Source: Pseudovirgaria hyperparasitica
Lineage: Eukaryota > Ascomycota > Dothideomycetes > Acrospermales > Acrospermaceae
DNA length: 58,248 nt
Reading direction: 5' to 3'
NCBI RefSeq assembly: GCF_010093815.1
Contig: NW_022985569.1
Coordinates: 354,874 to 413,121, forward strand
The notes beneath the pieces are model-generated. The model searched no databases, had not been told where the DNA came from, and was given only the letters and a program-made list of their open reading frames with translations. Positions 3,201 to 58,019 of this stretch are shown one piece after another; positions within the stretch are counted from its first letter, which is position 1, and each line of letters opens with the position of its first letter. The position numbers were made by a program, and so were the translations under genes.

Positions 3201-3210
3201 AAGATTTTAA

Positions 3211-6250: not shown

Positions 6251-6261
6251 GAACGAATATA

Positions 6262-13690: not shown

Positions 13691-13699
13691 AAACTTTCC

Positions 13700-24331: not shown

Positions 24332-24426
<95 letters not shown>
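24332..24426. repeat. (ATT)n microsatellite, about 95 bp, at LINE-3 3' tail
   Basis: An uninterrupted ATT repeat of over 30 units runs into the N gap. Other LINE tails in the window have only about 5-8 units. Either the tail expanded by slippage or the assembly collapsed or merged several tails here. Confidence 0.95.
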
Positions 24427-24471
24427 NNNNNNNNNNNNNNNNNNNNNNNNNNNNNNNNNNNNNNNNNNNNN
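24427..24471. other. Assembly gap (45 N)
   Basis: 45 consecutive N. On the left is a plus-strand LINE tail, on the right the middle of a minus-strand LINE RT domain. About 1.8 kb of the right-hand LINE (its RT C-terminus, 3' UTR and tail) is missing, so the true distance is probably not 45 bp unless LINE-4 was truncated before. Confidence 0.97.
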
Positions 24472-27970: not shown

Positions 27971-27974
27971 TAAG

Positions 27975-28560
27975 ATAATTTTATTATATAGATATCTCTA
28001 TATTATCTAACTATTACTTAGAACTAAGTAATTCTATAATAGTAACCTTTATATTATATACTTACTTAACTCTATATATCTTAGTAGAGTATATAAAAAC
28101 TAGTATATAAGAAGGTAGCTATTATAGAATTTAAATCTATAATATTAGATAATAAATACTTCTAGTAATATAGTATACTACTACTATACTACCTAGCTAA
28201 TAAGAAGAAGATAATAGTAGTAGAGATAGTTTAAGCTATTAATTATATAGAAAAGCTTAAGAAATTAGAGACTTAATTATTATAGACTAGATAGATAGTC
28301 TCTAAAAAGGTATATAAGACTTATTTATATAAATTCCCTCTATTTTAAGTATATAGTTATTAATATAGATGTTTAGAGTTCTACTTAAATTATATAGTTT
28401 ATTAGTAGATTGGCTTATTAGTAGATATATTAACTTAGTATAAGACTTAAATGAATTATAATTTGCATAGCATTTTAGAGAAACCGGGCCACCCAACTTA
28501 ATTAGCCTCGTAGCCTAATTAAACTACCAAGTGCTCGACTTTAACTACTTAAGCCTTCTC
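27975..28560. other. AT-rich interval with no recognisable gene
   Basis: Between the 5' end of LINE-4 and the phosphotransferase pseudogene lies about 590 bp of very AT-rich DNA. It has no frame I can relate to a family. The last 80 bp (from about 28480) become GC-richer and presumably hold the promoter and leader of the pseudogene. Confidence 0.5.
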
Positions 28561-33028: not shown

Positions 33029-33050
<22 letters not shown>

Positions 33051-33270
33051 TTGTATAACTAGGTAGAGTAGTACTCTATAGGCCTATGCCTCCTCTAGTC
33101 TAAGCCACTATGTAAGAAGAAACCCCATAGGGAAAAACTTCCTTATGTCTATAACTACATCTCGTTAAACCTCTGTTTCGTCTTAAGTATATAGCCATAG
33201 GGTACACCTATTAGCCTATAGCCTATATTACCGTTATTTTACCCTTAGGTAGCACGTGTAGGTGCGGAGG

Positions 33271-33301
33271 TTATTAGTTAAGGGCTGCCCTTAACTAATA
33301 A
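33271..33301. repeat. 3' UTR hairpin of LINE-6
   Basis: Perfect 14-bp stem (ttattagttaaggg and complement), loop ctg, about 240 bp from the tail. Identical to the 5' copy in the same element except for the loop. Confidence 0.92.
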
Positions 33302-33399
33302 TCGGGGTTCTCCTAGGGTTCTTCCGGTATATGTCGGGTTACTACTAGCGTATACCGGGTCTCTTCCGGCATATATTTCCGGGTCTACTAGTACTAGAG

Positions 33400-36300
33400 G
33401 AGTAGTAGATATATAAGTATCTATTAGGAGACGTCCTTAGAGTACTTATTAAGCTATTATACGACATCTAAAGTCTTCATAACGTGGATAAGCCATTACC
33501 GTTATATATAGAGGTTAGGGCATATAGCTAGATAGTAGCGTATTATACCTCTCCGGCCGCACGTCTTATACTATAGGGAGGTATCGGGAACGCCTCTCTT
33601 ATAGATATAGTATAGAAGTTCTATGGCGCCCGTTCGGGCTTAGATAAGTATAGATGCTTAGGCTTTCGTTAGCCCTTTATATATCTATTTACTCGGTTCC
33701 TTCTATGGCCCTCGAATCTACTCTAGGTACCTATCCTACTAGAAGGTCTAGTAGGCACGGAGTGTCTCTTTCTACTTATCTTAAGTCCACGACCGTATAT
33801 TTTTCACGAGTTCTTAAAGGCTCTACCGGTCTAGGAGAGCGTCCGGGTTATCTCGGACTTCTTATACTACTTAACTAGAGTCGGCTTCTATTAAGTACCT
33901 ATACTATATTCGATTCCGGCCTATATATAGGAGTACGCGGTAATATATACTAATTCGTGCACGTAGCGCGGCGAAAGTATATTCTGCGTTTTCTATACGT
34001 TCCTATACTTATTATTTAGTGAAGTATACTACCCTCTATATCTAGTAGAAGTTATATATACTTATGACGTCTATCTCGCGTCGTAGTAGTACCGTGTTAA
34101 TAGCTTTATATACGCCTAATATAAGACGGAGTATGCGGTTCTATATAGATTCGAGCTTTATTCGCCTAGTCTATATAAGGGCTATATACTAGTACTCGTG
34201 TCCGTACGTGAAGGCGGGTCGTGCTATAGATATATATAGCTAGCGTGCCTTATCCCGGGCGGTTCCCTACGTGGAGGCTATAATCCGTTATATAGCGGCT
34301 TCTACCTAGAGGGCCCTAGAGATAGCGTATACCACTTATGGTCCCTATTTAAGCTTACTATCTAGTATAACTCCGAGCGCGCGTATGCTTTATACTAGTA
34401 GTTCGTTAAATGCGTCGATTCGGGGGCGTTATTCGCCTTCCCTAGTTGCCTATTTCCCTTAATGATTAATAAAGTACATAAGCTGGTATTTCTCCGGGGC
34501 GAACTTTACTCTATAGCGTTTTACCTACTAGAGGCACCTCTTATAGTCCTGTTCTAGTCGTCTACACGTTCGGTTGGTATTATTATCGATGGCTAGGAGG
34601 TATATATTATCGGCGTATCCGACTACCTCTATATACTTTATTCCTTAAAGAAGGTCTACTATAAAGAAGAGGAATAGAATCGGAGAGATGGTACTCCCTT
34701 ATAGGATGCTGCATACCGTCTCTTTATATTCGCTCTAGTACCTAGGGATATATATCTAAGTTATTCTTCCTATAAGGAATGACTATATAAAGCGTATAAT
34801 CTATTCTAGTATTCGTCTTATCCGGAGATTATAAATAAGTCTTATGTGGTTTACCTTATTAAACGCTCTGGCCATATCGAGGGAGAGGAGCGATACTACC
34901 CGTCCCTATTTCTATGCGGCCTAGACGACTTTAATAATATATTAGATAGCTATTATTAGGGAGCTATCTACCTTTGCCTTCTGGTTCGGAGGGAGGAGAT
35001 TATATTCCTATACCGCGGTACTTATCTTCTTCGCTATCGTAGCCTCTAGTATCTTACCTAGGTAGAAGAGAAGGGCGATTAGTCTCTATCCCTTTAGGGA
35101 GTTAGGGCTCTTTCCTAGTTTTAGGAGTATAATAGTATAGGCGACTCGGAAGCTCTAGGGGTGGTACCCCTACGTAACGTATACTTAGAATATATAAGTA
35201 ATAAGCGGTAGGGTCGCTTTTATAGTACTTTTTAGGCATTAATTTAGAATTCCATCTAGTCCGGGTGCTTTATTATTTAGGAGTATCTTAATAATATTAA
35301 GTATATCCTCCTCCGTAACTTCTTCGGGGATATCTACCGTATATAGATATTCGGCGCCGTGAACGTCTAATAGGTCTACTAGTTCCGGGAGAGGGAACAT
35401 GGCCTCCTATAGAGCCTTAGTTTTCTTAAGGCTCGTGGAGTATATTCTCCCCTAATATATTAGGGGAGGCATAAGTAGCGGGGGTGTCGGAGTATCTACG
35501 CCCTTGGCCCATTTCGCTATGCGCCATAGCCCTATTACGTATCATGTCTATTAACTAGTAATTATATACTACTATTTACGCCTTTCGTTATAGAAGACTT
35601 TATCGTGTTATCGTATCGCTTTCTTCTATTCTTCCTATAACTCGGGTGTTCTCGTATAGTATACGCGTATATATAGCCTTCGGGCGTCTTATCTACTTTC
35701 CTATACTTAAGGAATCCCCTTTACTTCCAGGGGCCGGTATATTTAGTATAGTACGTGTTTATTTCTTATATTCTAATATATTTATAGGAGTGTCTATACG
35801 GCCTGGTCTATGGCTAGGTTGTTAGATATATCGACTATAGAGGGATCTAGGATTGCCGATTCTAGGTCCTTTAGATACTTTTCCTAGTTAGTATCCTTCT
35901 ATATCTATTATCCCTGTTATTTATTCGGGGTATATACGTTTATTACGGTTTCTATATATTCGTAGTCGGAATCCGTCTATACCTAGCCTAGGTAGTAGTA
36001 TTGGATCCGGTAACTAATATGCTCCGTAGCGAAGGTAAGGTTAAGCGTGGACCCGTCTTTATCCTATTTATATTTTTTCTATATAACTTATTCTATAGGT
36101 GTAAGTAGATATAGGAAGTCGTGGTAGCGGGTACGTAGTTCCCTTACTCTAAGTTCTTCCCTAACTATGGCTAGGCCTCTCTACCATCGGTAGTAGAGGT
36201 TAAAGTCTCCTAGGAGGATGTGTTACCCTGGTTCCATAGTACCCTCGAGTATCTCGTCTAGTATAAGTATACGTTATTAGTTATATATGTTATATATATA

Positions 36301-36610
36301 TAGGGGGCCTATATCTATTTATAGGTGTAGTATTATCCTAAGGTTATCGCGCTCGGTATACAACCATAATAAGAGTAGTATTAACCTATAAATATAGAAG
36401 AGGACTCGTCTTTCTAGTCCTAGAGGGTATATAGTGTGGTATCCGGGGTGTATGGTTAGTTTACTCGTCTGGTAGTGTTTATAGGGTTCCTAGATAGCGA
36501 GTATTATGGCCCCGGTCTCTTCGAGGAGCGTCACCTAGTTCTCTCTTTTATATTATATATTTACCTATATAATTTAGAGTATATTCTAGTCCCTTATTAG
36601 GTACTAGAGA
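33400..36610 (-). pseudogene. LINE-6 ORF2: endonuclease and reverse transcriptase
   Basis: Minus-strand homologue of LINE-1/-2 ORF2. The RT active site at 34601-34625 reads 'GYADNIY' (YADD with a RIP-type Asp to Asn change). 'SLDMARAFNKV' lies near 34845-34885. Endonuclease motifs lie near 35990-36200, with 'LLGDFNLYYRW' around 36180-36215. The product would nick target DNA and prime reverse transcription from it. It is inactivated by many TAG/TAA. Confidence 0.88.
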
Positions 36611-36639
36611 GTATATATACCTATATACTTATTCCTTAG

Positions 36640-37960
36640 AGGCGCGACTATCCTCGCGCGGTAGCGGCTTTAACTATGCCTTTTAGTCATCCTATCGTCT
36701 TCGGAATAGTCTACTATCCTACCTAACTATCTTCCGGAGGGGAGGTTAGGGGTATTATAAAGGAAGGGCTCGTGGTAGATATTATATTCTATAACTATCT
36801 TACGCCTGTCGCTTTTATCGTATAAATGTATTCTATAACCTATTTACGTTTTATACACGTTAACGACTATAACGGGTGTTTCCCGTCGTAGTTTAAATAC
36901 TATACTATATCCCTATTTCTTAGTCTATCTCCTCGCGGTTTATAAGGGCACTTCTAGATGGCGTGGTCTCCACGGTACTATCCGCACTTAGTCTTCTATA
37001 AGTACCTTTATATAGTATGTCTATACCCTTAATAGTTAAAGCACTATATTATTACCTATACTCTATTCTATGGCTCGGCCATAAGGAGCTCTCCTTCTAT
37101 TAGGAATCCCTTCTATATAATATGTTATACGAGGGCGGGGTCTCGGAGCTCTATAATTATAGTAGAGTGTTTTTTCGCCGTCGTCTTAATCGCCTATAGG
37201 TTCTTCTACCACGCTTTCATAATCTTAATCCCTAGGTATTTTCGCGCGTTGGATTATTCTATACGCGTAATATCCTCCGCTCTAATAGCCTATCCCCGCA
37301 CGGGTACTATATATACTATAATTAGGTATATGGCTGCCCTAATAGACGCGCTAGGGAAGATACTACCTATCGCGTTCGGATCTCGCGAGATGTTTTACTA
37401 TATAGTATTCGTTATAGTAGTAAGTACTATCCCACCTAGTATAACTTTAGTAGCCACGACGCTTAACTACATTCCTTTCTATTCGTTAATCTTATTTATA
37501 ATTTCCTTTAGGGATACCTATTAGACCTACGCTAGCGTGTTCTTATCCTAGATTATAATACGTATACTATATACTCTATCTATGGTCCTAGTGGTCCTTA
37601 GTGCGGTAGCTCCGGGTATTACTATAATCTAAGCCCACGTATTAGGGCGCTTACCTTAGGATAGCTCTTCCTAGATTCTCCGTAGGCTAGCTTCCATTCG
37701 GTTAAGCCTACTACTAGGTTCCTCTCGTGGCGACTTCCTTTCTTCCTCCGTGATTCCTCTTAGGTTCTAGATAAGGTCCCGGAATATATAAAGGAGGGTC
37801 TTCTTTCCCTTCTCGGCGTCCCTCTCTACACGTATTACCTAGTATTTAATTTTATCTAGGAGGGTCTCCCCTCTCGGGGTCCCCTCGGTCTAGGTTATCT
37901 ATAGCGCTTCGCACCCTTAGTTAGTTCCTATATTTTAGATAGGTGTCTGGCTGTCCACAT
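36640..37960 (-). pseudogene. LINE-6 ORF1, gag-like with zinc knuckles
   Basis: Minus-strand homologue of LINE-1 ORF1. The knuckle region lies at about 36840-37050 and the Arg/Glu-rich N-terminal part at 37100-37960. A 91-codon open frame on the opposite strand (37249-37524) is a shadow of this gene and appears in the same place in LINE-1. Confidence 0.78.
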
Positions 37961-38047
37961 TAATGTTACTATATGGCCGTTTCTACCATACTAGTGGGGG
38001 TATATCTAGCGTATACCGGGGTGTTACGATGCCTAAGGCCGCCATGG

Positions 38048-38078
38048 TTATTAGTTAAGGGTAGCCCTTAACTAATAA
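38048..38078. repeat. 5' UTR hairpin of LINE-6
   Basis: Perfect 14-bp stem with loop tag, 235 bp from the 5' end. It matches LINE-1 4795-4825 base for base. Confidence 0.93.
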
Positions 38079-38327
38079 AAGGGGGTCGGCGTATTAGTAT
38101 TTATTAGATATGGTCTATGCTCGTGTTATCGAAGAGTCTTCGAGCGTATATATATAGTATCTCTATACGTCGGTATCATCGCGTATTATACGCTATACGT
38201 ACGCACGTGTATCGGAGGTTATTATACTCGGTGTACTCTATCGTTTAATGTATATAAATCGCTGTTTTACCCCGAATTGACTAGTTTAGTCTATTGGGGT
38301 GTGAGAAGTTTTTATATATATATATAT

Positions 38328-40194: not shown

Positions 40195-40239
40195 CATTAG
40201 GAAAGATACGGCGCTCCTAATGCTTCTAGGTATCCCGGT

Positions 40240-40405
40240 ACTTCTAAAGTTATCCTAAATGGGTCCTAGTACTTCTAGAGTTATCCTAATCCTCCCGGAG
40301 TTATCCCGGTCCTTCTAGAGTTGTCCTAGTTCTTCTAGAGTCGTCCTAGTCCTTCTAGAGTCGTCCTAGTTCTTCTAGAGCTATTCTAGTTCTTTTAGAA
40401 TTATT
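40240..40405. repeat. Tandem array of a 20-bp unit
   Basis: At least five to seven imperfect copies of gtcctagttcttctagagtt-type units in a row, the central ones nearly identical. The array is GC-richer than its surroundings. Confidence 0.8.
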
Positions 40406-40429
40406 CTATTAAATATTAAGAAAACGTTT

Positions 40430-40750
40430 AATTCTATTATATACTAGTATATATAGTAACATTCTACTATATACCGGCGTAGTATAGTAATACTACTTTA
40501 TATTATAACTATACTTCGAGTATCTAGGAATATTCTATAATATACCGGTGTATAGTATATTAGAATATCCCGTTATATACCGGTATATATAGTAACGTTC
40601 TACTATATACCGGTATATAATTATAATACTACTTTATACTACGACTATACTTTAAGTATCTAGGAATATTCTATAATATACCGGCGTATATCGGAATATT
40701 CTATTATATACTAGCATATATAGTAACGTTCTACTATATAATAGTATAGA
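40430..40750. repeat. Tandem repeat of about 130 bp with palindromic tataccggtata cores
   Basis: Two full units and part of a third. Each holds a segment tagtaac(a/g)ttctactatata, a segment ctatact..gagtatctaggaa, and two or three ataccgg(t/c)rtat motifs, several perfectly palindromic around CCGG. No coding sense. Confidence 0.75.
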
Positions 40751-40849
40751 ATAAATATCTTATTTCTCTTTATATATAGATATATATAGATATATAATTA
40801 TAAGTAAACAGCGGTTTATATTTATACTACTATACTATATAGTCTCTTA

Positions 40850-43800
40850 GAAGCTAATTAACTAACTACCTTACTTACTTCTATACTACTATATCTCTAT
40901 AGAATTAAAGTATACGCCTATTACTAGTATATTAGATATAGCTATCTCTACCGTAGCTATATCTTCTTTTTCTAGGTCTAAGGCTTATATTCTTATACTT
41001 TTAATTACCTTATCTAATACGGTAAGTCTAGCCTTAACCTCTAAATAGTCTAAAATTAAAGTATACGTATATACTATAGGCCGATATTATCTATAGTAAT
41101 AATATCTTATACTTATCTACGGCCACGTCTCCTTACGTAAGTATTAGTCTACTAATACTATAAAACTAGTAACTATTAGGTCTTATCCTTTATAGATCTA
41201 CGAAGCTAATACTAGTAGAATATATAGAGAATCCAACTTAGTCAATCTAAATAATCTATATACCTTATTTAATTCGGACATACTTAGGCCGGCTAGTAAA
41301 TATACTAATATTTTCGCTTATATATATGGACGTAGTACCTATATATATTAGTAAATTACGTTACTAGTAGATAGTATAAACACTTATTAAGTATAGAAAT
41401 ATTAGGCTTACTAGTATAATATATATAAGTACGATTTTCTCTAGGTAGTTAGCGGATATTTATTACGCGTGTCTAGTACTTTTATTATAAATATTATTAT
41501 TAATAAAGTTATAGATCTAGTTTACCTTCGAAGCGTGTTTATTAGCTAGTAATACTATCTCCTTTTATATAGTCTTATCTAGCTATAGAAGTACTTCGCA
41601 TACGGGATTAGTAATTATCTTACTTAGTATACTATTATTACTATCCCTCTAACGCGTAAGCGTAATATTAATTTACTTATCTTCTATCTTTTTATTAGTA
41701 AGGTATATAAGTAGTATATATATAGTAGCTAGCCTAGCCTAGTAGTAGTATACGTTAAGCCTAGACCTAGTACCCCTATTTAATTTACTCTAGGCGGTAG
41801 ATTATATCTATAAGTCCCGCGGCGTTCTATTAGACTATAGATTATTAAACTATTTACCTCTATTCTTGTATAACCGTATAATTATCTTCTCTAGTTCTAT
41901 AGCTAGGATAGATATAAACTCTACTACTAGCTTTAATATTATAGATAGATATATCTCTCTATTAAACTATTTAGTTAGTAGTCTCTATTATAGAATAAAT
42001 AGTAAATACTAATCGGCTACTATACGTAGTATACGCTTACCTTCTATGGTTTCTAATACTCTATAGACTATTACAGCTATCGTATCTACTAGCTTACCTT
42101 TTATTAAACTAAGAAGTTTATTTAACTATATTATAATAATCTTTCTTATAGTTTTATTCTATAGGCTCTCGAATACCCTTTTAGTAGTATTATTATTAAT
42201 ATAGTCGGGTAACTTATCCAGAGTATCTACCTCGATAGCTACTAGAATATCTACTAGACTATTTAAGAGGGGTGTTATACTAACCTATATACTAAATATA
42301 AAGGTATTATATATTATATATTTATACTATTTTATATTAGGGTTCTTTATAGAATAGAACTTATCTACTATTAATATACCGAGGAATGCTACTTCGCGAG
42401 TTTAAGTGTTTTTAGTACTAAATTTTTTCACCCTCTTTATTCTTATAACCACGTGTTCTATAAAAGATTTAAGATATTAGAGTTCTATACTCTAGATAGT
42501 ACTATAGATTATATAGTTCTTCGTATATTGCGACGGAAATTTAGTAGTAGCGCTTCTATTAATAGAAATCGACTATACTCTAATAATATACTTCTTATTA
42601 GTCTTGAATTTAGTAGTATTACTAATATTAACGCTATATTCCCATTCGGGGTGTAGGTATCTCTTAGCTAAGTATTATCGGTCTATATACGAGAATTATT
42701 AGATACTAGGGGCGTTAGTAAGGGTTTTTAAGTACGCTAGCTATACTATTATCTTTATTAGATTCTATTTATTAATCTAATTAGTAAATATACTATCCGT
42801 ATTATTATATATCTATTTAAAGCGCTATAGCTAATACGCTATTAGAAGGGACCTTAGATAGTATAGTATAAATAGTCCTTAAAGGCGGGGTATATAGATA
42901 AAATTATTAGTCTAGCTACACGGACATTTAATCGGATATAGAGATTATATCGGGTACTTTCTATCTATACCCGAGTCTTAAGTCGGTTATAGATAATTTC
43001 CTAGATTAAGTTCTATATTATCGCGTAGAAAGTCCTAATAAAACACGAGGCGGATAAACGTTATAAGCATGATTATCTTCTCTAGCTCTAGACTATCTAC
43101 TAAGATCTAGTACTTCTATAGACCTACCCGCTACTTAAATATAGTAACTACCGCGAGTAACTAGCTAGCCTATAGCCTATATAACCTACTTATACTAAAG
43201 GCTAGATATAGAGTAGATATATGGCCGAACTCCTTTATTAGATCGTCTAGTATAAGTCTAAATATACTTATAGTAAGTAACCGTATCTCTTCCGTATAAT
43301 AAGAGATAGCTTAGACTACTTTATTAGAGTTATTAATAGTAAATATTCTATAGATATATTAGTATAGTAGTATATATTCCTACTTACTTCTTAGTATAAT
43401 TTACGCTTTCTATAGTTTCGTACTAATATTATTATCTACCGGAATTAAGTTCTCTATATCTAGCTTTACTTTATCTCTATTAGAGTTATTATCTATAGAA
43501 AGAATTTTAAAGTCAAGGCCGTTTGCTAATATACTATCTAATATATATCTACTATATAAATTATCTACTAATCTAAATAGTTCCTAGTTTTTACGTGTCT
43601 ACTAGTCGATATCTAGTAATATAATATATTCTAGTTTTAGACGTTTCGGAGAATTAACTAGGTTTACTATATTATCTAAGAGTATCCTCTTTATTTCTAG
43701 TAGCCGTAGATAAGTCTCGCTAGTATCTAGAGGTATAACGGTATTTATAGGGGAATTATCTATATTAGTAATTATAGCCATATCTATCTTCGATACTACT

Positions 43801-44300
43801 CTAATGTTAGTATCTAGAACTATATATATATATATATATCTAAGTATACTAGCTACGTTATCTTCTATTTTAGTATCTTCTATATTCTCTTTCTCTATAT
43901 ATTCTAACGGTAACTATAGCTACGTATCTATACCTATAGTATCTTTATCTAGTTTAGCCTCTATTATATCTATAGTTATAACCGTTAGTACTAACTTACC
44001 ATTTATAGCCGTAATATACTAATTAAATTCTCTAGTAACGGTTTCCTTAACTATTCTATAGAGTATAGTAGTATCTATACTACTAGTTTCAAGCTCTATT
44101 ACTACTTCTTTACTTACTATCTTAATAATAGTAGCCCTATATATATTATAACTTATTTCGGGTATTAGGTATAGGTCTTAGAGGTACTAGATATAAGGTA
44201 GGAGGGTACTAATACTTAAGGCCTCCGTACGTTATATATACGTGTTACGGTTAGCTATTCTATAGCTAGTAGTTAAACTAGGATAGTCGTGACTCTTATT
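40850..44300 (-). pseudogene. Large minus-strand protein remnant of unknown family
   Basis: The minus strand, with stops as Gln/Trp, gives long protein-like runs with few frame changes. Examples are 'ATIIKIVSKEVVIELETSS' near 44080-44140, 'GLDFKILSIDNNSNRDKVK' near 43470-43530, and 'RYLHPEWEYSVNISNTTKF' near 42610-42670. Others are 'REVAFLGILIVDKFYS' near 42350-42400 and 'EIVLLANKHASKVN' near 41525-41570. The C-terminus is near 40850. Composition is globular and helical, without a motif I recognise. A frameshift is needed near 43800. The density of Gln/Trp-position stops matches RIP. It sits downstream of the helicase remnant on the same strand. Confidence 0.55.
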
Positions 44301-44504
44301 ATATCTATCTATTTCTATATATAACTTAGACTATAGGTTGTAAGACGGCGTTAATAGCGATAAGATATAAAAACTAGATTTAGATAGTAGAAGTTAAGTT
44401 ACTATGTTTAGTAATTATAATATAATTTTAATAAGTATAGAGAAAGTAAAGTATATAAGTAAATATTTAATTATTAGAGTAGATCTTATATAATTATAGT
44501 TATA

Positions 44505-44690
44505 GTAATAATATAGCTAGTAGAACCGGGCGTATCCTAACGTAAACTAGGTAGACGCCGGCTTATACTAGTATTATAATATCTTAACTAAATATATATA
44601 CTATAGTTATATAGCTAGTAGAATCGGGTATATACTAATATATAGTAGGTAGAAGCCGTCTTATATCGGATTATATTACCTTAGCCAAGC
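44505..44690. repeat. Direct repeat of about 105 bp, two copies
   Basis: The sequence tatagctagtagaaccgggc and following bases to 'gacgccggcttata' recurs about 105 bp later as tatagctagtagaatcgggt with RIP-type differences. It lies between the unknown protein remnant and the next coding remnant. Possibly promoter-associated or LTR-derived. Confidence 0.6.
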
Positions 44691-44699
44691 ACGCACGCT

Positions 44700-46880
44700 A
44701 CTCTTACTACCTCTAGCACCCTTTTTATTATTCTATTAGTCTTTAAAAGCGATATCTATATTCTCTATGTCTAAGGTACTTTTAAGGCTTTTAAAGTTAC
44801 TATCTTTAGAGCTTATAGATTGGTCTTACGACTTTCTAGATACTAATAGTAGTATATATAGTATCGCTAGAGGAAGGGTTAAGTCGTTTAGGTAATACTA
44901 TCTACTATCTATAATACTATCTCTATGGGTATCTCTACCGTTATAGATAGTAGCTTTCTATTACTATTATTATACTAATTATAGTAAGTATAGTATTAGA
45001 GACGGAGGGGCGGATTTATTCGAGCGTAACCTATATATAGCCGTCTATACTATTATATACTAGTCGCTGGTTTATATTTCGTTTTACTTTAGATATACTA
45101 TCTATATTCTATCTAAGGCTAAGGAGTATTATACTATTACTATATTCTAGGATATATTTAATTACTAACTATAGGAGCCATCTAATATCTACCTCTAGTT
45201 CTATTTTACTTATTATATACTTAACTACTAGTATAATAGAATACATGGTAGTATAGCTCTAGTTAAGTACCCTCCTAGTCTTTATTACGTATTAGACCCT
45301 AATTTACTATATAAATACTACTAAATTAATACACGAAGCGTTACTATAGTCTTTCTACTAGTTAGATATAGATACTAGTATTTTAAGGAATACGTTATCG
45401 TTAAACCTAATCATAAATTTAATTTTTCTTATAGTATATATATTAGTAGACTATAGAACTACTATAAGTATAGACTATAAGATCGTAGTATACGAGAGCT
45501 ATAAGGTTATAATAAATAGAGGTTATAAGATCGTGATAGGCGGAGATTATAAGATTATAATAGATAGGGATTATAAGGTTATAGGATATAGAGCTATAAT
45601 TACACGCCTCTTCTTATACTTAGAGATAGTTTTTCTATAATATATAGTTTTCTATACTATAGTACGTACCTAGTCGTAGATATAGTATAGCGCCTTTATC
45701 TCTATATACTCTACTACTCTTTTCTATACTACTAGGAATTCGCCCGCTACCTTATTAATAATCTTATATACTCTTTTTATACCGAGCTCGTTCTTAGTTT
45801 AATATCTATAGTCTATAAGTAGAGTAGCTATATATACTTCTATATATAGCTACCTTATACACGCCTCTATAGCTTTATACTTTACTTATATATCTAGGCT
45901 TAAGATACGAAGTAGTACTATAGTAATTACTATATTCGGATGGTTACTTTATTATAGAATCGGATTTAATATATTAATCATATATAGTTAACGTGTATAG
46001 TTAATATAGTATTTATAATTTATAGACTAATTATATAGTATATACGTAGTATATTATAGGCGTAAGAAAGATAGAGATATAGGTTAGACGATAGAGGTAG
46101 AAGCCGTAATAATAAGGCATCTACTAGGTGAATCTTATTTATATTCTTATTATTCCTTAAACACGCGTTTATAATATATATATAACTTAGCATGGCGTGG
46201 TCGGGCGTGTAGTTATTTACTTTATATTATCTAATACCCTTAATAGAATTAGATAGCTATAATTCTTATCTTATAATATTATATCGTAGGCGACTACGTC
46301 TAGAACGGTATATGGCTATATATATATAAGGTACCGTGTTAGTCTTATTCTATTTTATATTTATATACTTATCCCTAGGTACTCTCCGAGTATTATAAGT
46401 CTATATTTTATTATATTTAAGTATTATATCTTTCTATACTTTTAAAGTACACGATATTTAGATTTACTATATTCCGTATATATTATAGTTAAAGTCTAAA
46501 GGTAGAGACTTTAATTAGGGCGTATATTTTTTTATATTTTCTCTTTAGATAGTAATATCTCCTAATATAAAGGCTAGAAGTAGTTTTAAAAGTATAAAGA
46601 GAATAACTAAAGGAAGTCTATATTATTAGGCCGGGGCTTATAATAGATATAGAATTATATTTATTTCTTAATTAGTCGGTACTAGTTAATGTATCTAGTG
46701 GCGCTATATTATCTAATAGCGCGTCTATACTAGAGTAGACGTAATAGAAATACCCTTAATAGATCTTTAATAGAGCTAAACTATCTATCTAGTAGAATAT
46801 TATAACTATATCTAAAATAAATATAGAGGTATACTTACTAAGAAGCCGTAACTAAGTAGCCCTAATATATAAGTCTAATT
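44700..46880 (-). other. RIP'd interval with weak minus-strand coding signal
   Basis: About 2.2 kb between the two large minus-strand remnants. One run near 46060-46260 reads 'NNYTPDHAMLSYIYIINA' followed by 'NKIHLVDALLLRLLPLSSN' on the minus strand, which looks coded, but I cannot extend it to a domain. Near 45500-45600 a plus-strand 'ggttataagatcgtgatagg'-like unit of about 24-27 bp repeats four to five times. Nothing else recognised. Confidence 0.3.
45470..45600. repeat. Imperfect short tandem repeat (tataagatcgtrat-type)
   Basis: Four to five imperfect units of about 24-27 bp containing ataag(a/g)t(c/t)(g/a)ta are visible. They may represent a repeated peptide in a lost frame. Confidence 0.5.
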
Positions 46881-46984
46881 ATATACTATTACTAATTAAC
46901 TTCTATATCTTTATATATTATAATACCGCTATCTTAGTTGGTATCCTCGTAGTCTCTATCGTCCTAGCCGCTAGTAGTTACTTT

Positions 46985-47058
46985 ATTAGTAGTATTAGTT
47001 CTAGTAGTATTAGTTCTAGTAGTATTAGCTCTAGTAGTATTAGCTCTAGTAGTATTAA
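46985..47058 (-). repeat. 15-bp tandem repeat encoding a TTR(A/T)N pentapeptide
   Basis: Five copies of a 15-bp unit (tctagtagtattagt on plus). On the helicase strand it reads 'TTRAN' twice and 'TTRTN' twice in frame between the zinc knuckle and the C-terminus, a flexible low-complexity tail. Confidence 0.75.
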
Positions 47059-47104
47059 CTAGATTATTACCATTTATACGTGCTAGTAATTTAGTATAGC
47101 TAGA

Positions 47105-47150
47105 ATAATAACGCCGAGTATAACTAGTAGTCTTATAATTATAGTAAAAC
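47105..47150 (-). other. Zinc-knuckle remnant at the C-terminus of the helicase-like protein
   Basis: Minus strand reads 'FYYNYKTTSYTRRYY'. Restoring the usual RIP changes only at Cys and His positions (TAT/TAC for TGT/TGC and CAT/CAC) gives spacing C-x2-C-x4-H-x4-C exactly, the retroviral-type CCHC knuckle that binds single-stranded nucleic acid. It lies in the same frame as the helicase motifs. Confidence 0.65.
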
Positions 47151-50100
47151 GTACCTATAAGCGTCTTAGGTTTAGGGTAAATATTAGCTTTATAGCTAAT
47201 ATTCTAATAGTTATTATATATATATATCGACCCTCTTAGATACTTAATAGACTTATATTCTTTAACGTTATATTTATAGTAGACTAGCGGCTTACGGGGC
47301 TTAGTACTATTAGTAGTTTATTAATTACTTTATTCTCCCCTCTCTCTAATACTAAGTATAGAGTAACTATATTAGAGATTAGGTATATTAGAGGGTAGAG
47401 GGAGGCTATCTAGATCGGGGGTCGTGCACGTGTATATCGTATAAATCTTAGAGTACTTATTCTATATCTCGCCAAGTACGCTATCTAGGACTTTCTACCT
47501 CTTAAGAGATATAAAGTTAGTAATAATAACTATTATCTATTTAGCGCGCGTAATAGTAATAATATTATAGTTTACTTCTAAGAGGAAGCTAAAGCGATTG
47601 GTTTAGACCGGGTTAATAAGGACTATATCGTTATTATAACCCTAAGAACCGTCCTATAAACGCTATTAGATAAGCTTCTATACTAGCTTAGGTAGAGTAT
47701 TAAATTAAGCTTTATCCGCTATAGTAAGTATAGTTAGAAGCGAGTTTCTAACTATCCCTTTAAATAGATTACGTTAGGTAGCGTATATAGAAATATAGAG
47801 TACGCGATTAAGTATAATACTATAATAGAAGAGCTTAGTAATAATCTACTAAGTAAAACGTAATAAGTCTATATTATATATTAAGTTATTTACTATATAC
47901 ACGTAATCCCTATTAACGTTAGTATATATAATATATTAATAGCTATAGATTCTAAATATTTATTAAACGGTCTCTACGAGTAGTATATTAATATTATTTA
48001 TTATATAGGGCGAGGTCGTTAGCTCGCCTAAGTAAGTAATTAGTAATATAACGTTTATTATTCTAGGAACTAAGTATTCTAACTCGGTAAGGCAAGTAGT
48101 TAGAAAACTATATTATATCTAGCGCTTTATAAAGGAGATTCTCTAGTTCGCGGTCTATATATTAGTACTATTATACTAGTAGGTATCGAGCTAGTATAGG
48201 TCGCTAATATAAATAAATATCGGTTACTATTCTATAGTAGTATAATTAACGATAATTCTAAGTATATTACTTTTAAGGATATATATAGCCTCTTCTATTA
48301 TAACTAAAATTAGATATATATTATAGGCTACCTTAGCGATATTTATAATATATAGGGTCTCTATATAAATCTAGATATAGATAGTAACTAGGTCCTAGAT
48401 AGCGAGGTATAGCTCATTTATTCTATTATACTTCTTCTTAGATATATCCTTATTATAAGCGTAATATTTATAGATAGTATATAATAGTTAAGCCGTTTCT
48501 TTCTCGAAATTCTTAGAGATCCATTTATATTAGTATTAAGATTTAATAAGTCTAACGACCTCGAGTATAATATAACTAGTATATAGTTCCTATAGACGAG
48601 CACGGAGATCCGTACTATATTCTAATAGTTATTTACTATAGTCGGCCTAGGCTTACGTAAGGATAGTACCATCTATTATATTATTCTAGGTTAGCCCGAT
48701 AAGAGGGTCGCCGTAATAAGATAGTCTAGCTATAGTAAAGAAAACCTCTTAATTAATAGCTTTGGGGCATCTTTAAAGAATAACTAGTATCTTTAGAGAC
48801 TTATAGTAAGTAAATATATTACTTATATATTTATATACTTTTCTTATAGCGTTGTCGTAGGTTTCGTTAGTTAGGCTAATAATAATATATATATATATTC
48901 TATATATTTAGATAGAACCTAGTATAGAAAGGTACGCTATTACATCGCTAGATAGAATAACTACCTTAGTAGTATAAGTAATAATAGAAGTACTATTTAT
49001 TTCGTTAATTAGAAGTATAGCTAGTAGTAGATAAAGCTATAAATAGCTCTTACTAGCTCCTCCATAGCCGTGAAGTAGAAACTAAGCCCTAAGTACGTCC
49101 GTTATCTATATATATATATACTATTATTAGAGAGATAGTTCTAAATATATAATATCCTAGAGATCGTAGAATCTTTTATAATCTTTAATATAGTGGTTAT
49201 AGTCGATAGATTAAAGATTTAGATAGTTATTACTAAGTATTAGATTCTATATAGAGGGTAGTAAAGGGAATAGAATACTAGAGTAGACTTTAGATAATAT
49301 TAGAAGTATATATATATTAGTAACGGGGCTAGTAATAGAACCTTCGTCGCTAATAATATCGTGACTATATTCTATATTTATATTCTTATTATTATCTAGG
49401 GATATAGATAATTTAGAAAGAGTAATAAGGGTATTCTAAGGCTCCGTACTATAATCTAGAATCTCGTTATTAGAGTTAGAGGACCTATATATTAGAGATA
49501 TAGATACCGAGTCTACGATAATATTAAGGACTATTATATTAAATATATTCTAAGCGGCGTGGTTATCTACGCCGCCGTCTCTAGAAGCTTATATAGTATA
49601 GTAGGTTAGTTTCTAGTACGTATTAATATATTACTTAGTAAGCTTATTATAGATTTATATACTAACTAAAGCTAGAAGGTTCGTAAACCCTATAAGCGTA
49701 GTAAGAGATAACCTAATTATACTTAAACTAGTATCGCTAGTCTAAATAAAATGTTTAGGATAAGCTTAAGTTATATTAGTAACCGTATCTATTAATATAA
49801 TTAGTACCTTAGATACTTTAGAAAGATATCTAACCTTATTAAAGACTTTTAGAGCGAGGCATTTAAATAGAAGAATATCTAGGTAAAATTAAAGGACTTT
49901 AAAGCGGTATGTATCGTTATTATAATCCTTTAAATCTACTTTAAGGTACCTATAACTACCTAGTTCTATATAATAGAATCCTTTTGTATTAATAGAATAG
50001 ATAATAGCTAAGAGCGCCTAAGTAATATCTAAGAGCTAGATATATCTAATAGTAATATCTTAGAATTAGGATAATAGAAGATCTATCTATTTATCTTATA

Positions 50101-51049
50101 AGGTACTTATAGTAATATATATTAGATAGTCGAATTTCTTATTAAATAACTCGCGGTAGAGAATAGAGATCTAGGGCTAAGTATCCGGCCTACTTAATAT
50201 ACTATATTATATATAGAGAGTAGTAACTTCTATATACCATAAATTAATCGGATTACTCTCTAGTTTAAGCTTATTATTAAAGCCGGTAAGATCTATAGAG
50301 TTATATAGCGGTAGTAAGATATAAACTATAGTATAAGTACCTAGATCTTCGAAGAATTACTTTACTTATTTATATATTATATTAGGTCTAATATATAATA
50401 GAATAGTAAAACCTATACTAAGAAGCTCGCTAGCTATAAGTTTAATAATCTAAAAGTCGTAAGAGTCTTTATAGAGGCTAGTATTAGTATATAGTATATT
50501 AGCTTTATCCGCTTCGCTTATAATAAGATTAGAAAGTTTAGAAAAATACTTAATAAAGTTATCTACTTACTTAATCTTAAAGATCTATACTATAGAGTAG
50601 TTAGATAATAGAAGGATATTAGTATAATTAAAGCGGAGTAAGCTTATTAAGAATACTAATTTCTCTTTATTAATCTATTAGAAGCGAGTATATAACTTAA
50701 TCTAAGAGTAGTACTTAGGGAATTTAAGGAATCTATATATATAACTAATCGACTCTTTAAAGCCGTAACCTTTACTATAAGCCTTAAATACTACTAGCTT
50801 AAGCTTAGCTTAAGTTTTCGCTTATTCCTACTTAAGTCTATCTATTTCTCTACTAATACTATAGATATTTCTAAAGGTTAACTATAGATTACTCTATATA
50901 AGAGAGATCTAATAGATAGTATAAGTAGAAACGGGAGTCTTACTACTTTAGACCTTCTTAAGTTTATACTTATTATTAGAATAGTAGTTACTAATAAGTA
51001 TACTAAAGACAAGTAGTTTATTATCGGTTAAGATAGTAGTTATATTATA

Positions 51050-51330
51050 AGCTTCGACTTAAGTATAAGACTTAGCTTTAATATAAGGATTAGCTTAAAT
51101 ATAAGGCTTGGCTTAAATATAAGGCTTAGCTTAAATATAAGGATTAGCTTAAGCGTAAGGTTCGATTTAAATATAAGACTTAGCTTAAACGTAAGGCTCG
51201 ACTTAAATGTAAGGCTTAACTTAAGTATAAGGCTCGGCTTAAATGTAAGGCTTGACTTAAGTATAAGGCTCGACTTAAATATAAGGCTTAACTTAAATAT
51301 AAGACTCGGCTTAAACGTAAGGCTTAATTA
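51050..51330 (-). repeat. 18-bp tandem array encoding a (K/E)PYxQ(A/V) hexapeptide
   Basis: About 15 units of 18 bp. In the helicase frame (minus) they read K/E/N-P/S-Y-x-stop-A/V, where the stop is a former CAA Gln, giving a KPYIQA-like hexapeptide. The frame agrees with the protein text on both sides. Repeats differ by single substitutions. The Pro/Tyr/Gln-rich array is probably extended and low complexity. Confidence 0.75.
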
Positions 51331-53599
51331 TATTAAGCGTAGACTAGTTCTAAATATTACTAAATATAACGAGTTCTTAATCTATATTATAAACTATAAA
51401 TATAACCTCGTTAACTATTATATAGAATAGACCTTAAGGGTTAATAGAGTCAAGTTCGACGTAGCGTTTATATATAGTTATAATTAATATAGAATAAAGT
51501 ATAGAAGGTAAGATTTAGATTTAAAAACTAAGATAAGTAGAGAAAAGGTTTATAGAAGTTTTCTTTTATAATATAGAGATAACTAAAGGAAGCTAAGATT
51601 AACGTAGGCTAAAGTAATAGTAGCTTAAGTAGTTTATAAAGTAGGGTAGTATACTACTATTATATAAGTCTAGTAGCTTACTAACTAAGTATATAGTATA
51701 TTATAGAAGGCTATTAAATTAGAGCTTAGGTAAATATAGATATAAGTAAATAGTATTATATAAAAGTTTAGCCGTCTAATATACTAACGCTATAGATACT
51801 AAGTCTATCTTCTAAATTCTATAGTAACTATCTCTTCTAGGTAGTAAGATATTACTAGCTATATCTTATCTATTCTATTTATAGTAGAGATACTATATAT
51901 CCGTTAGTATACTAGCGTACGTATCTAACTACCGCTTAAATATAACTTACCTTATACTATAATATATACTATTAAGCTAATATTATACTAATATTTATAG
52001 GTTCGTATCTATAAACTTCTCTTCTATAATATTAAAACTAGTAATATTATCTAGTAATAGAACTATATAAGAAGAAGGCGGACTTAGTATATCTAGTTAT
52101 ATATAGACTTCTACTATCGCCTTAATAACTACTACGCTAGTAGGCGCTTTCTCTCTAGCCCTAAATAGTATATAATATTGGACTTTTATACGTTCGCTCG
52201 AACTCTTAAGTATACTAGTATTATATATTGATTTATAAGGTAATTAGATTATAATTACTAGTATATTAATATTAATAGGTAGAGTAGACGGGATAGTAGC
52301 GCTTAACTCTTCTAATATAACGTTAGCTAGCTAATAATATAATAGGTAAATATACTAGTCGCGTTATTATTAACGTCTATCGTCTAAGTAGATAAAGCGT
52401 TAACTATATCTATATTAAGTAGACTAGGGCGTACCTATATACTATTAATAAAAGATCTAAATCTAGTAAGGTATCCGCTATATATATAACTCTATATATA
52501 ACTAATAACTAAAAACCTAAGATATATAAATAGTATTAGGTCTACGGAAGAGCAATAGTATTATACTAGTATATACTAGATATACTAGTATATATTAGTA
52601 TACGCCGCTTAGTCGTTATAATATATTAATATATACTAATATCTATTAGTATATATATATCTTAAGCTTATCTACGCGCGCTAGACGGAGGAATTCTACT
52701 ACTATACTTATAGCGCGACGTTTCTATATAGTTAGATTATAGTTAATATATTATAGTAGGCTTCTAAATATACCGTTTATATCGCCCACGCGGAAAACTA
52801 CCCGATCTAGTCCTAAGTCTAGTACCTATTTAATAGTCTACTATAATACCTAGTCTAAACTATTCTTATAAAGAACTATATTACTTAACTTGCTTAGTAG
52901 AATCGGGTATTCTAGATAGACACGACTATGCCTATAACCGTCTACGTCCTCTAGTATATCTATAGATAAGCTAATAAATTCTAATAGTTTATTTATACTA
53001 AGATCTACTATATTATGTATTTTTATACTCTTAATATTTAATAGCGTTATACTATTCTATATAGCTATTATTAGTACTAGAGTAACCCGAGTATAATCAT
53101 AGATAAGGACTATAGATATACGTATATAATACGGCGGCACGGCTACTTTAGAAGATATAGATACTAGTAGTCTAATAGTTAAATAACTAGGTTAGCTAGA
53201 TATATTAGGCGGGTTTATAGAGTATATATAATATTATAATAGCTTGTCTAGCCCGGGGCATCGTTTTAATATATATAATAGTATTTAGCTAACCGCCGCT
53301 AGTTACGTATAAATACTAAGAATATAGTATTAAGTTAATATATAGTATCTACCTATAAAATAGTATAACTACTATTAATAAATATATATTTATCCGCAAC
53401 CGTCTGGAGGTAATACTCTCATTTTATATAGTGGTCCTTTACTTCCTTACTACGTAGGTTTAGTAATAGACTAGTAAATTCCTCTTAAATTAACTCTTCT
53501 ATATATACCCGAAGTTTCTATCTATTAGACGCTCTAAATATATAAAGTATATTAAGACTCGCTTCTACTTGGCTATTTATTCGCGGCTAGCTAGATATA

Positions 53600-54590
53600 G
53601 CTATAGATAGATAGAATAGAGAATAGAGTATATTACTAGGGTAATAGAGAGATAATATATATACTCTATATAATAGATGTAGGTATAACACGTATATTAC
53701 GGCTATATTAACGTAAGTAGTCTATATAGTTATTAGTAATAACTCGTTAATTTAATAGAGGCGGGGAAACATATAACTAGTATCCGATTCTATACTAATA
53801 TAGAGCACGTAAAATAACGACGTTAAATATATAATACTCTATACATAATATTAAGTATAATAGATAATAGCCCTACTCTAGTAATACCATCTATATATAA
53901 TAAAAGAGTAGTATAGTATATAGACATGATAGGATAGTAGACCGTCTTTACGACTATATAGATCTACTACTAAAGAGAAATACTATAAGATCTAGTATAT
54001 ACTATTATAAATATACTATTATCTATTATATTTAGGTATACTAACTTAGCGTATATAAAATATAGATAACTACTAACCTATTATAGTTCGCTATTATTTA
54101 AAGCCTAACGAGTAGAACTAAGGAATAATCAGTAGAAATAGTTAGATATAAGAGTTTTTAGTAATTAGAGAATAGTCTAGATAGCTTAAGAGAAGGATAG
54201 AGAACCTTCGTAAAGTATATACTTATATAATATTAATATATAAATATTTAAGAGAAGTATATAATACTAACTATTATCTCTATAATAGATTATTATTAAT
54301 TAGTACTATTATTAAGAAGAGATAGACGAGCGTAATAATAAATAATTATAGTAGTAAACCCTTATATTAAACACGAACAATACAACATATTAGTACAGTA
54401 TATTTATCTATTATAAGAATATACATCTAGTTACCATAGTTTCTAACAGTCTATATAAGAATATATATATTAATAATATAGTAATATAAGTCTAACTATA
54501 CTTATAAGACTAGAGAAAGAATAAAGAAAGAGAAGAAGAAATATTAGAAGGGGGAGATACTTAAGAAAGACGTTTCCCTAGTAAGAGCGT
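53600..54590. other. Interval upstream of the helicase remnant, nothing recognised
   Basis: About 1 kb of RIP'd, AT-rich DNA that should contain the helicase gene's promoter and perhaps its 5' exon. I see no other gene. A purine-rich agaagggggaga near 54545-54556 might be a retroelement polypurine tract. Confidence 0.35.
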
Positions 54591-54730
54591 TATATACCCG
54601 GTATATACTTATTTATACTTATTTATATAGACTCGTTATATACCCGATACTTATTTATTAATAGACTTATTACGTATCTAATACTTACTTAACTATAGAC
54701 TTATTATATACCCGGTATCTAATAAGATAT
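54590..54730. repeat. Tandem repeat of about 34 bp with tatacccggtata motifs
   Basis: Four imperfect units of the type attatatacccggtatactt plus 'atttattaatagactt'. The CCGG-centred motif resembles the ataccggtat cores in the array at 40430-40750, on the other side of the two large minus-strand remnants. Confidence 0.7.
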
Positions 54731-54739
54731 AAACGCAAA

Positions 54740-54999
54740 TAACGAAAATATTAGAATCGGGTATAAGCTAGGTCTAGTAGACCTAGAGATATAGTTTGGA
54801 TTTCAGGGTATTAATATATATAATCTATCTATATTAGGTTAATACTATCTACGTCTAGTTCTACCTATAAATAAGAATTCTTTAAGTTCTATATACCCCT
54901 TTTAGAGGCGTAGAGTTTTTATACTAGCTAGTAATTATTAGATAATAAGGAGGTGTATCCCTAGATACTCCTTAGCTAAAATTATAGATAGTTATTAAA
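54740..54999. other. Short non-coding interval before LINE-7
   Basis: About 260 bp of AT-rich DNA with a gaatcgggtata motif like the one at 44620. It contains no recognised gene. LINE-7 begins at about 55000. Confidence 0.4.
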
Positions 55000-57900
55000 T
55001 ATAATAATAATAATAATATTATTATATAACTAGGTAGAGTAGTTTACTCTATAGGCGTATACCTCCTCTAGTCTAAGCTATTATATAAGAAAAAACCTTT
55101 ATATAAGGAAAAACTCCCTTCTCTCTATAACTATATCTCGTAAAACCTTTATATTATCTTAAGTATATAGCCGTTAGGAATATCTATAGGTCTATAATCT
55201 ATAGTACTATTATTTTACCCTTAGATAGCACGTATAGAGTATAGGGGTTATTAGTTAAGGGTTACCCTTAACTAATAATTAGGGTTCTCCTAGAGTTCTT
55301 CCGGCGTATATTAGGGTCTATCTAGTATATACCTAGTTCCTTCTAGTATATATATCTAGGTCTATTAGTATTAGGGAAGAGGGAGGTATATAAGTATCTA
55401 TCGGGCGATCTCCTTAGGGTACTTATTAAGCTACTATATAATATTAGAGGTCCTTATTATATAGATAAGCGATTATCTCTATATATAGAGGTCCGGGCAT
55501 ATTATAAGATAGTATTATATTATACCTCTCTAGCTATATACTTTATACTATAGAGATATATCTAGAACGCCCCTCTAGTATAAGTAGTATAGAAGTTCTA
55601 TAACTTCTATTCGGGCTTAGAGAAGGATAGATACTTAGGCTTTTATAAGCCCCTTATATATCTATCTACTTAGTTCCTTCTATAGTCTCTAGATCTATTC
55701 TAGATATCTATTCTATTAGAATATCTAATAGATCCGGAGGACTTCCTTCTATTTATTCTAGGTCTACGACTATATAGCCCGTATAAGCTTCTAAGGGTTC
55801 TACTAGTCTACGGAGATATCCGGGTTATCCCCGATCTCCTATATAATTTAGTTTAAGTCTATCTCTATTAGACTCTTATATTATAGTTAAGTCTAGTCTA
55901 TATATAGTAGTACTTAGTAGTAGATACTAACTTATATATATAGCGCGGCGAAGGTATATTCGGCGTGTCCCACGCGTTCCTATACTTATTATTTAGTAAA
56001 GTATACTACCCTCTATATCTAGTAGAAGTCTTATATACTTATTATATTTATCTCGCGCTATAGTAGTACTATATTAGTAGCTTTATATATACTAGATATA
56101 AGGCGGAGTATACGGTTCTATATAGACTTAAGCTTTATTCGCCTAGCCTACGTAAGGGCTATATACTAGTACTTATATCTATATATAAAGGCGGGTCGTG
56201 CTATAGAGACGTATAGCTAGCGCGCCTTATTCTAGGTGGTTCTCTATATAGAGGCCGTAATCTAGTATATAGCGGCTTCTACCTTAAGGGCCCTAGATAC
56301 TATATATATAATCTATAGACCCTATTTAAGTTTATTATTAATTATAACGCTAAGTATATATATACTCTATATTAGTAGTTTAGTAAAAGCATCTATTCTA
56401 GAACGTTGCTCTCCTTCCTTAGTAGTCTATTTCCTATAGTAGTTAATAAAGTATATAAGTTAGTATTTCTTAGGGGCGAACTTTACTCTATGGCGCTTTA
56501 CCTACTAGATATATCTCTTATAGTCTTATTTAAGGCGTTTATAGGTTAAACTAGTATTATTATTAATAGCTAGAAGGTATATATTATTAGCGTATCCTAC
56601 TACCTCTATATATTATATCCTCTATAGAAGGTCTATAGTAAAGAAGAGGAAGAGAATTAGAGAGATAGTACTTTCTTATAGAATACCATATATCGTGTTC
56701 TTGTATTTACTTTAATATCTAGAGATATATATCTAGGTAATTCTTTTGGCGAGGAAGGACTATATAAACTTTATAATTTATTTAAGTATATATCTCTTCT
56801 ATAGGTTATAGATAAGTCTTATATAGTTTACCTTATTAAATGCACTAGCTATATTAAGGGAGAGTAGTATTACTATACGTCTCTACTTCTATATAGTCTA
56901 GATAACTTTAAGAATATATTAGATAGTAGTAATTAGGGAGCTCCCGGTCTTCGCCTTCTAGTTCACTAGAAGAAGGTTATATTCTTATACTATAGTACTT
57001 ATCTTCTTCGCGATTATAGTCTTAAGTATCTTACTAAGATAGAAGAGAAGGGTAATTAGTCTCTATCCTTTTAGAGAGTTAGGGTTCTTCTCTAGCTTTA
57101 GAAGTATAATAGTATAGATAGTCTAGAAGCTTTAGGGGTGGTACCTATTCTTAGTATATACCTAGAAGATAAGACTAATAAGTAGTAAGGTTATCTATAT
57201 AGTATATTTAAGATATCTATTTAGTATTCTATCTAGTCTAGGCGCTTTATTATTCGGGAGTGTTTTAATAGTATTAAGTATATCTTCTTCTATAATCTCT
57301 ACGGGAATATTAACCGCGTCTAGATATATATTATTATTAATATCTAATAGGTCTACTAGCTCTAGAGGGGGAAATATAACTTCTTAGAGGATCTCTATCT
57401 TTTCGGGGCTCGTGGTATATATCCTTTCCTAGTATATTAAGGGAGATATTAGTAGTAGTAGTATCGGTATATCCGCGCTCTTAGCCTACTTTACTATATA
57501 CTATAGTTCTATGGCCTAGTATATATATTTATTAGTAATTATATACTATTATTTATATTATTTATTACGGAGGGTTCTATTATAAGATTAGATTACCTCT
57601 TTCTATTTCTTCTATACCTTAGTTATCTAGATATAGTATACACGTATATATAGTCTCTAGGCTTCCCTTCTACTTTTATATATTTAAGGTATACCCCTTA
57701 TATCTAGGGGCTTATACGTTTAGTATAGTATATATTTATCTCTTAAGTTTTAGAAGGCTTAAAGAAGGACTTATACGGCTCTATCTATAGCCGGGCTATT
57801 AGATATATTAACTATAGAGGGATCTAGAATTACTAATTCTAGGTTCTCTCTATACTTCTTCTAGTTAGTATCTTTCTATAGCTATCTCCCCTATTATTTA

Positions 57901-58019
57901 TTAGATATAGATATATCTATTACGGTCTCTATATATTCGTAGTTAGAGTCTATCTATATCTTACTAGGGCGGTAATATTATACTCTATAGCTTATATATT
58001 CTATAGCGAGGGTAAGGTC
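55000..58019 (-). mobile_element. LINE-7: minus-strand LINE, 5' part removed by an LTR insertion
   Basis: (TAA)n tail at 55000-55018, 3' UTR hairpin at 55248-55278, then ORF2 on the minus strand. RT active-site region near 56580-56605 (plus ggtatatattattagcgtatcc). Endonuclease region runs up to 58019, where homology with LINE-6 (about 36035) stops at the start of repeat X copy 3. Erosion is intermediate between the LINE-1/-6 and LINE-3/-4 classes. The remaining endonuclease and ORF1 presumably lie beyond the LTR element outside the window. Confidence 0.88.
55248..55278. repeat. 3' UTR hairpin of LINE-7
   Basis: Perfect 14-bp stem with loop tta. Same position relative to the tail as in LINE-1, -3 and -6. 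Confidence 0.9.

Follow-up and report, generated by a model that had tools for sequence, protein, structure and literature searches.

What gene lies in the long and heavily mutated minus-strand reading frame at the right end of a fungal contig, and to what kind of unit does it belong? The frame is located in a window of 58,248 nucleotides from Pseudovirgaria hyperparasitica (C21:354874-413121 of its own genome, the right end of the contig); the term window denotes this whole stretch, and positions without a prefix are counted from its first letter. A preliminary description, made from the letters of the window, had proposed a giant helicase gene killed by repeat-induced point mutation (RIP), perhaps belonging to a mobile unit rather than serving as a housekeeping gene. 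The locus is very probably a RIP-killed helicase gene of a giant, approximately 22-kb, PlavakaB-like cut-and-paste transposon with about 20 copies in this Dothideomycete-like ascomycete; the confidence expressed here concerns the identity of the element and of the gene, not the role of the helicase. Inverted repeats, 2-bp duplications, a Plavaka transposase, and a helicase with a hexapeptide array and knuckle-like motifs are arranged in a fixed order on one strand. The coordinates of all features are collected in Table 1.

RIP damage and copy number

Over 46001-54000 (four 2-kb windows), CA and TG occur at 0.03-0.14 of expectation and TA/AT amounts to 1.56-1.75, a dinucleotide bias that is the mark of RIP. 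Both the RIP damage and the multicopy state that had been deduced from it are borne out. In the genome searched (35.0 Mb, 59 contigs), the DNA of 47300-49300 yields 32 matches, the query itself counted, and 18 of them, including the window, cover the whole query, the other 17 at 86-93% identity. At the protein level, a 1402-codon helicase query detects 36 places, 12 of which, again including the window, traverse the query unbroken, each with 66-90 TAG/TAA and at most two TGA, in agreement with the continuous minus-strand frame originally described. In the window itself, the frame 51028-46841 (minus) contains 90 stops in 1396 codons.

Among 12 copies compared over 8099 columns, 1942 of the 1996 variable columns are C/T or A/G, that is, nearly all changes are transitions, and at 54 of the 1401 codons every one of the 12 has a stop. 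These shared stops were considered as a sign of an ancestral RIP event, and the idea was rejected; the retention spectrum declines almost steadily from one copy upward, and CAA/CAG is the least retained among the CA contexts in the same 12 copies, so that saturation can explain the shared stops. Stop density was likewise rejected as evidence for the frame, with 71 stops in 1401 codons of the helicase frame against 79, 91, 94, 179, and 195 in the five alternative frames. Meanwhile, at 20001-22000 and 24001-28000 of the window, CA and TG are almost gone (0-1 each per 2 kb) and CG is very low, a state more extreme than that of the element.

A predicted helicase core of the Upf1/Sen1/ZNFX1 kind

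The frame is predicted to encode the core of a superfamily 1 (SF1) helicase of the Upf1/Sen1/ZNFX1 kind. Of 11 copies searched, 10 match AAA_12, the Pfam profile of the second RecA domain, at E ≤ 1, with 3.2e-10 as the best value. Eight copies scored singly against the AAA_12 cut-off of 27 bits gave six values above it (27.2-40.3), one of 25.6 (L018), and none for the window, whose own helicase copy has no Pfam match, AAA_12 included; in the C4 copy, the Pfam domain scan of the five remaining frames is empty. The motifs examined were I, II, III, and VI, the first three recognized by eye, and they follow one another in order at 49072, 48310, 48217, and 47560 of the window. Against the Protein Data Bank, an eight-copy profile finds ZNFX1 (E 2.5e-6), Sen1 (E 0.02), and NAM7/Upf1 (E 0.062).

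An SF1 core of the Upf1/NAM7 type in a single frame, as first proposed, is upheld by the order of the motifs and by AAA_12, but the profile of the first RecA domain, AAA_11, is unmatched at E ≤ 1 in 11 copies, the Walker A motif is altered (see below), and a stop stands within motif III and directly after motif VI in 20 of 20 copies. The gene had also been given an extent of 46889..53600, which holds at its low end, where a triple stop begins at 46894, but the part at 51.5-53.6 kb is unsupported as helicase gene; the six frames of L025:1-4802, which bear on this part, yield just two matches, neither of which reaches the cut-off, and they lie on the other strand.

Upstream of the core lies the (K/E)PYxQ(A/V) array, present as a tandem repeat just as the preliminary description had it and longer in the C4 copy, where it reaches 20.5 units of 18 nt. 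Downstream of the core, three tandem motifs share the CX2CX4HX4C spacing. The single C-terminal zinc knuckle of the preliminary description keeps its spacing, but it is one of three motifs and the least supported among them. Motif 1 retains its second Cys in one of 20 copies, its His in two, and its last Cys in three; motif 2 retains its first Cys in two copies and its His in five; and motif 3 retains the last Cys alone, in one. Altogether, six of the 12 ligand positions are still intact in one or more of the 20 copies; the remaining ones read Y, the expected product of RIP at TG or CA, and zf-CCHC is unmatched in the Pfam scan of 11 copies.

A helicase relative with 45% protein identity, also stop-ridden, is located at C15:835459-839376 and aligns over residues 6-1351, on a contig with no Plavaka match at E 0.001. 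The existence of such a relative suggests that the helicase gene has long been kept as a unit. The window contains two stop-to-stop frames of at least 150 codons, neither in the helicase region; since no frame of that length lies there and the window copy lacks a Pfam match, routine annotation would miss the helicase here.

The transposon and its linkage to the helicase

The 3' boundary of the element is sharp; it lies at window 40195 and is common to the window and 11 other copies. At the other side, the C26 copy continues past the equivalent of 55004 (C26:71927) for approximately 6.5 kb to a 5' inverted repeat at C26:65408, and its two ends form a 26-bp inverted repeat with one mismatch, 22.1 kb apart. 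In all five copies for which both flanks were read, the 2-bp flanks are equal (TA, TA, TA, CG, and TA). Tandem repeats lie inside both ends, those of the 5' end having an 18-bp unit (L043:2327-2533, C26 copy). The 5' ends (n = 13) read CATTA in six cases, TATTA in six, and CATCA in one, and the 3' ends (n = 11) read TAATG in nine, TGATG in one, and TAATA in one, with TAATG in the window. In the accessible text of Kojima 2025 (PMC12730594), PlavakaB is given 2- or 3-bp target duplications and the termini CATCA..TGATG. The observed termini read as what RIP would make of this pair, and on that account membership of the element in PlavakaB appears well supported.

Upstream of the helicase and on the same strand, the Plavaka transposase PF18759 is matched at L045:2722-7702 (plus strand) with E 2.2e-27 and 96.6 bits, the cut-off being 26.3; its residues are altered by RIP, and the translations of three copies were inspected by eye. 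The genome contains 22 transposase places (25 rows less three rows for second stretches), and 21 of them exceed the cut-off. At 12 of the 22, the helicase follows downstream after 5.6-6.7 kb and on the same strand, the spacing being 6.05-6.13 kb at 10 of the 22, and at six others it is situated 11-26 kb downstream. The mobile unit suspected at the outset is thereby identified as the approximately 22-kb PlavakaB-like transposon with its inverted repeats, duplications, and transposase.

Two other kinds of element come into question. The 3' terminus CCTAAT, found in 10 of 11 copies and in the window, places CTAA before a T, and in combination with an SF1 helicase it resembles the signature of a rolling-circle Helitron. 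Such an origin is hardly credible, however, and was rejected on the 26-bp inverted repeat, the 2-bp duplications in all five copies, and the Plavaka transposase; furthermore, neither Helitron_like_N nor PIF1 is matched in the scanned frames, and the 3' end folds no better than shuffles, without a stable hairpin (z +0.7 to +1.8). It is also quite improbable that the helicase is part of another transposon nested inside Plavaka. Several helicase places without a nearby transposase and the nested retrotransposons in some copies would suit a nested origin, but the spacing of 6.05-6.13 kb at 10 of the 22 places argues against it, as do the alignments, in which the C26, C10, and C4 copies match mutually through the 5' part and C26 matches the window through the helicase. 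Given the constant spacing and copies that align through both the 5' part and the helicase, any nested insertion would predate the spread of the element.

Several observations nevertheless weigh against a helicase borne by a Plavaka transposon. Four of the 22 transposase places have no helicase within 30 kb, and an upstream transposase on the same strand was undetected at the helicase places C6, C7, C15, C24, C40, C52, and C22:194-198k and in the window; a contig end, a gap, an insertion, or decay might account for helicase places of this kind. Internal stops interrupt 36 of the 36 helicase places, and an intact copy was not seen in the genome. In addition, the Walker A consensus GxxGxGKS/T is altered, all 21 copies examined having R or S as its sixth residue, which is consistent with RIP of a TpG site in an ancestral G codon, and an ancestrally inactive site would also fit. 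Homologues with the same architecture are present in the fungus's own genome, as copies and as the 45%-identical relative, but relatives from other organisms were not found in the protein database at E ≤ 0.001, in searches that each scored approximately 8000 candidates sharing exact words with the damaged query; fungal INO80 was readily recovered by the same tool. For a fragment of the host INO80, the best named matches belong to Elasticomyces (88%), a dothideomycete, and to Aureobasidium (85-93%), whence the host is called Dothideomycete-like.

Other genes and repeats of the element

The 5' third also carries DUF6532, a family of unknown function, at L045:3748-4182 on the strand opposite to the helicase (32.7 bits, cut-off 24), and all nine DUF6532 matches found genome-wide at E ≤ 0.1 fall, by their coordinates, within copies of this element. 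A third reading frame may encode an SNF2-like ATPase, an assignment that is weakly supported. Against Pfam SNF2-rel_dom, two of four copies match (best E 0.0054), without reaching the score cut-off. Aligned by hhalign with five host SNF2 proteins, the frame gives E 0.0032 and a probability of 10% at motifs II-III, versus E 0.26 and 0.2% for a control with the helicase profile. It has no match in the Protein Data Bank profile search or in NCBIfam, and no element copy is among the 41 matches of a genome-wide SNF2 search. Upstream of the SNF2-like part of this frame, a unit of approximately 0.2 kb (43738-43947) varies in tandem copy number in other element copies.

The element is interrupted in the window by a retrotransposon of the long interspersed nuclear element (LINE) type. 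This LINE is approximately 5.3 kb long and occurs in the window also at 4557-9857, 11961-17246, and 33030-38314; its L026 copy contains RVT_1 (E 2.7e-17) and Exo_endo_phos_2 (E 2.2e-9). The same LINE has also inserted into two further copies of the helicase element, L026 and L028, with overlaps of 29 and 15 bp resembling target duplications. Separately, a repeat of approximately 0.79 kb is present at 2913-3701; its relative on C26, which has many genome matches at 92-94% identity, directly adjoins the Plavaka copy of that contig at its 5' end.

Table 1. Features of the PlavakaB-like element and its surroundings in the window
Feature	Position	Strand	Remark
3' two thirds (14.8 kb) of the ~22-kb PlavakaB-like DNA transposon	40195..55004	-	read right to left; 5' ~6.5 kb (transposase, DUF6532) outside the window
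3' terminal inverted repeat, 26 bp	40195..40220	-	element terminus ...TAATG in the window
Subterminal 20-bp tandem repeats, inside the 3' end	40228..40408	-	18-bp unit at the 5' end (C26 copy)
Third reading frame, candidate SNF2-like ATPase	41211..43688	-	motifs II and III in register
Predicted helicase gene, supported extent	46886..51331	-	array through to triple stop 46894-46886; both ends provisional
Knuckle-like motif 3 (seen in the preliminary description)	47105..47146	-	CX2CX4HX4C; 1/4 ligand positions survives
Knuckle-like motif 2	47177..47218	-	CX2CX4HX4C; 2/4 ligand positions survive in at least 1 of 20 copies
Knuckle-like motif 1	47240..47281	-	CX2CX4HX4C; 3/4 ligand positions survive in at least 1 of 20 copies
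Helicase motif VI	47534..47560	-	ITITRAK in the window; inside the AAA_12 match (residues 978-1172, C4 copy)
Helicase motif III	48179..48217	-	FIYISDLY*LDTY in the window; less damaged copies GDPR or GDLR ahead of the stop
Helicase motif II	48281..48310	-	ILVIIEEAIY in the window
Helicase motif I (Walker A)	49040..49072	-	HGYGGASKSYL in the window
(K/E)PYxQ(A/V) hexapeptide array	51046..51325	-	18-nt unit, 15.6 copies
LINE-type retrotransposon	55000..58018		interrupts the element at 55004

Possible role of the helicase

The element would have been moved in a cut-and-paste manner by its Plavaka transposase, and the intact helicase would have worked on behalf of the element rather than its host, as a translocase that binds RNA or single strands and combines a Upf1-like motor with the knuckles as a nucleic-acid grip. 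As a tentative first choice, judged from the sequence, the helicase may have remodelled the transcripts of the element or RNA-DNA hybrids, thereby evading RNA-based surveillance. A possible second choice is that it aided transposition itself, unwinding or clearing the termini of the 22-kb element or the gap it leaves behind. The large size of the element and, at 12 of 22 places, the fixed position of the helicase next to the transposase would fit such aid, but the core is nearest to ZNFX1, Sen1, and Upf1, which act on RNA, and three knuckle-like motifs are present. Transposons elsewhere bear on the same point in both directions: the AcademH helicase is related to target-duplication length (PMC10045372, in the part available), but the accessible text of PMC12730594 names a helicase for Helitron only. 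Because of the kinship with ZNFX1/Upf1 and the knuckles, evasion of surveillance is slightly preferred over aid to transposition. For the part in meiotic or heterochromatic silencing at which the preliminary description hinted, the single pointer is ZNFX1 as nearest relative of solved structure.

It is unlikely that the helicase is passive cargo, namely a host gene of the Upf1 family captured by an ancestral Plavaka and carried without a role. TET/JBP and similar genes have been taken up by fungal DNA transposons (PMC12730594, same text), and 12 host loci with AAA_12 contain few or no stops. However, the AAA_12 scores of the element copies do not exceed 45.5 bits, whereas nine of these 12 loci reach 103-212 bits, with RIP lowering the scores of the element; moreover, the helicase follows 18 of the 22 transposase places, and the 45%-identical relative exists.

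Extending the preferred role in surveillance, an ascomycete Plavaka lineage might carry an anti-silencing kit built from ATPases, with a Upf1/ZNFX1-like RNA helicase bearing zinc knuckles and an SNF2-like remodeller, although this proposal is doubtful. If true, the kit would act against RNA surveillance and chromatin, as TET/JBP is thought to act against methylation for other fungal transposons. More generally, the findings suggest that a Plavaka-type transposon can carry its own RNA-helicase-like enzyme, and they raise the testable question of whether a transposon-borne Upf1-like protein hampers the RNA-based defences of fungi.

Comparison with known systems

In the accessible literature, most Plavaka elements come from mushroom-forming fungi, and TET/JBP is the additional gene remarked upon; the families in the available portion of PMC12730594 are from Agaricomycotina, with or without TET/JBP. 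In the open-access literature searched, as far as its text was available, neither a Plavaka element with a helicase nor a description of Plavaka from Ascomycota was found. A Dothideomycete-like host and a Upf1-type helicase at a fixed position broaden both the host range of Plavaka and the list of enzymes carried by transposons. The element resembles PlavakaB (CMCT clade) in its transposase family, in the termini CATCA..TGATG when RIP is allowed for, and in the 2-bp target duplications. In contrast to PlavakaB as far as its published account was accessible, it is approximately 22 kb long and carries a Upf1-like helicase, DUF6532, and possibly an SNF2-like gene, and its host is an ascomycete whereas the described families belong to Agaricomycotina; TET/JBP is unmatched in the element frames scanned.

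The Plavaka giant repeats of Amoebidium, which is not a fungus, contain gene clusters of up to 50 kb, many of them of tyrosine recombinases, in the accessible part of PMC11244446, and the word helicase is absent from its main text to the same extent. AcademH, KolobokH, and Helitrons are alike in that the transposon carries its own helicase (PMC10799480, PMC10045372), but, in the parts of these sources available, their helicases are of the Helicase_C/DEAD or PIF1 type, not AAA_12, and are accompanied by other transposase families.

With the SF1B helicases Upf1/NAM7, Sen1, and ZNFX1, the predicted protein shares AAA_12 and the order of the motifs, ZNFX1 being the nearest in the Protein Data Bank. 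Upf1 and ZNFX1 carry zinc modules other than CX2CX4HX4C. The helicase of the element differs from these proteins by that CX2CX4HX4C spacing, by the hexapeptide array, and by its location in a transposon.

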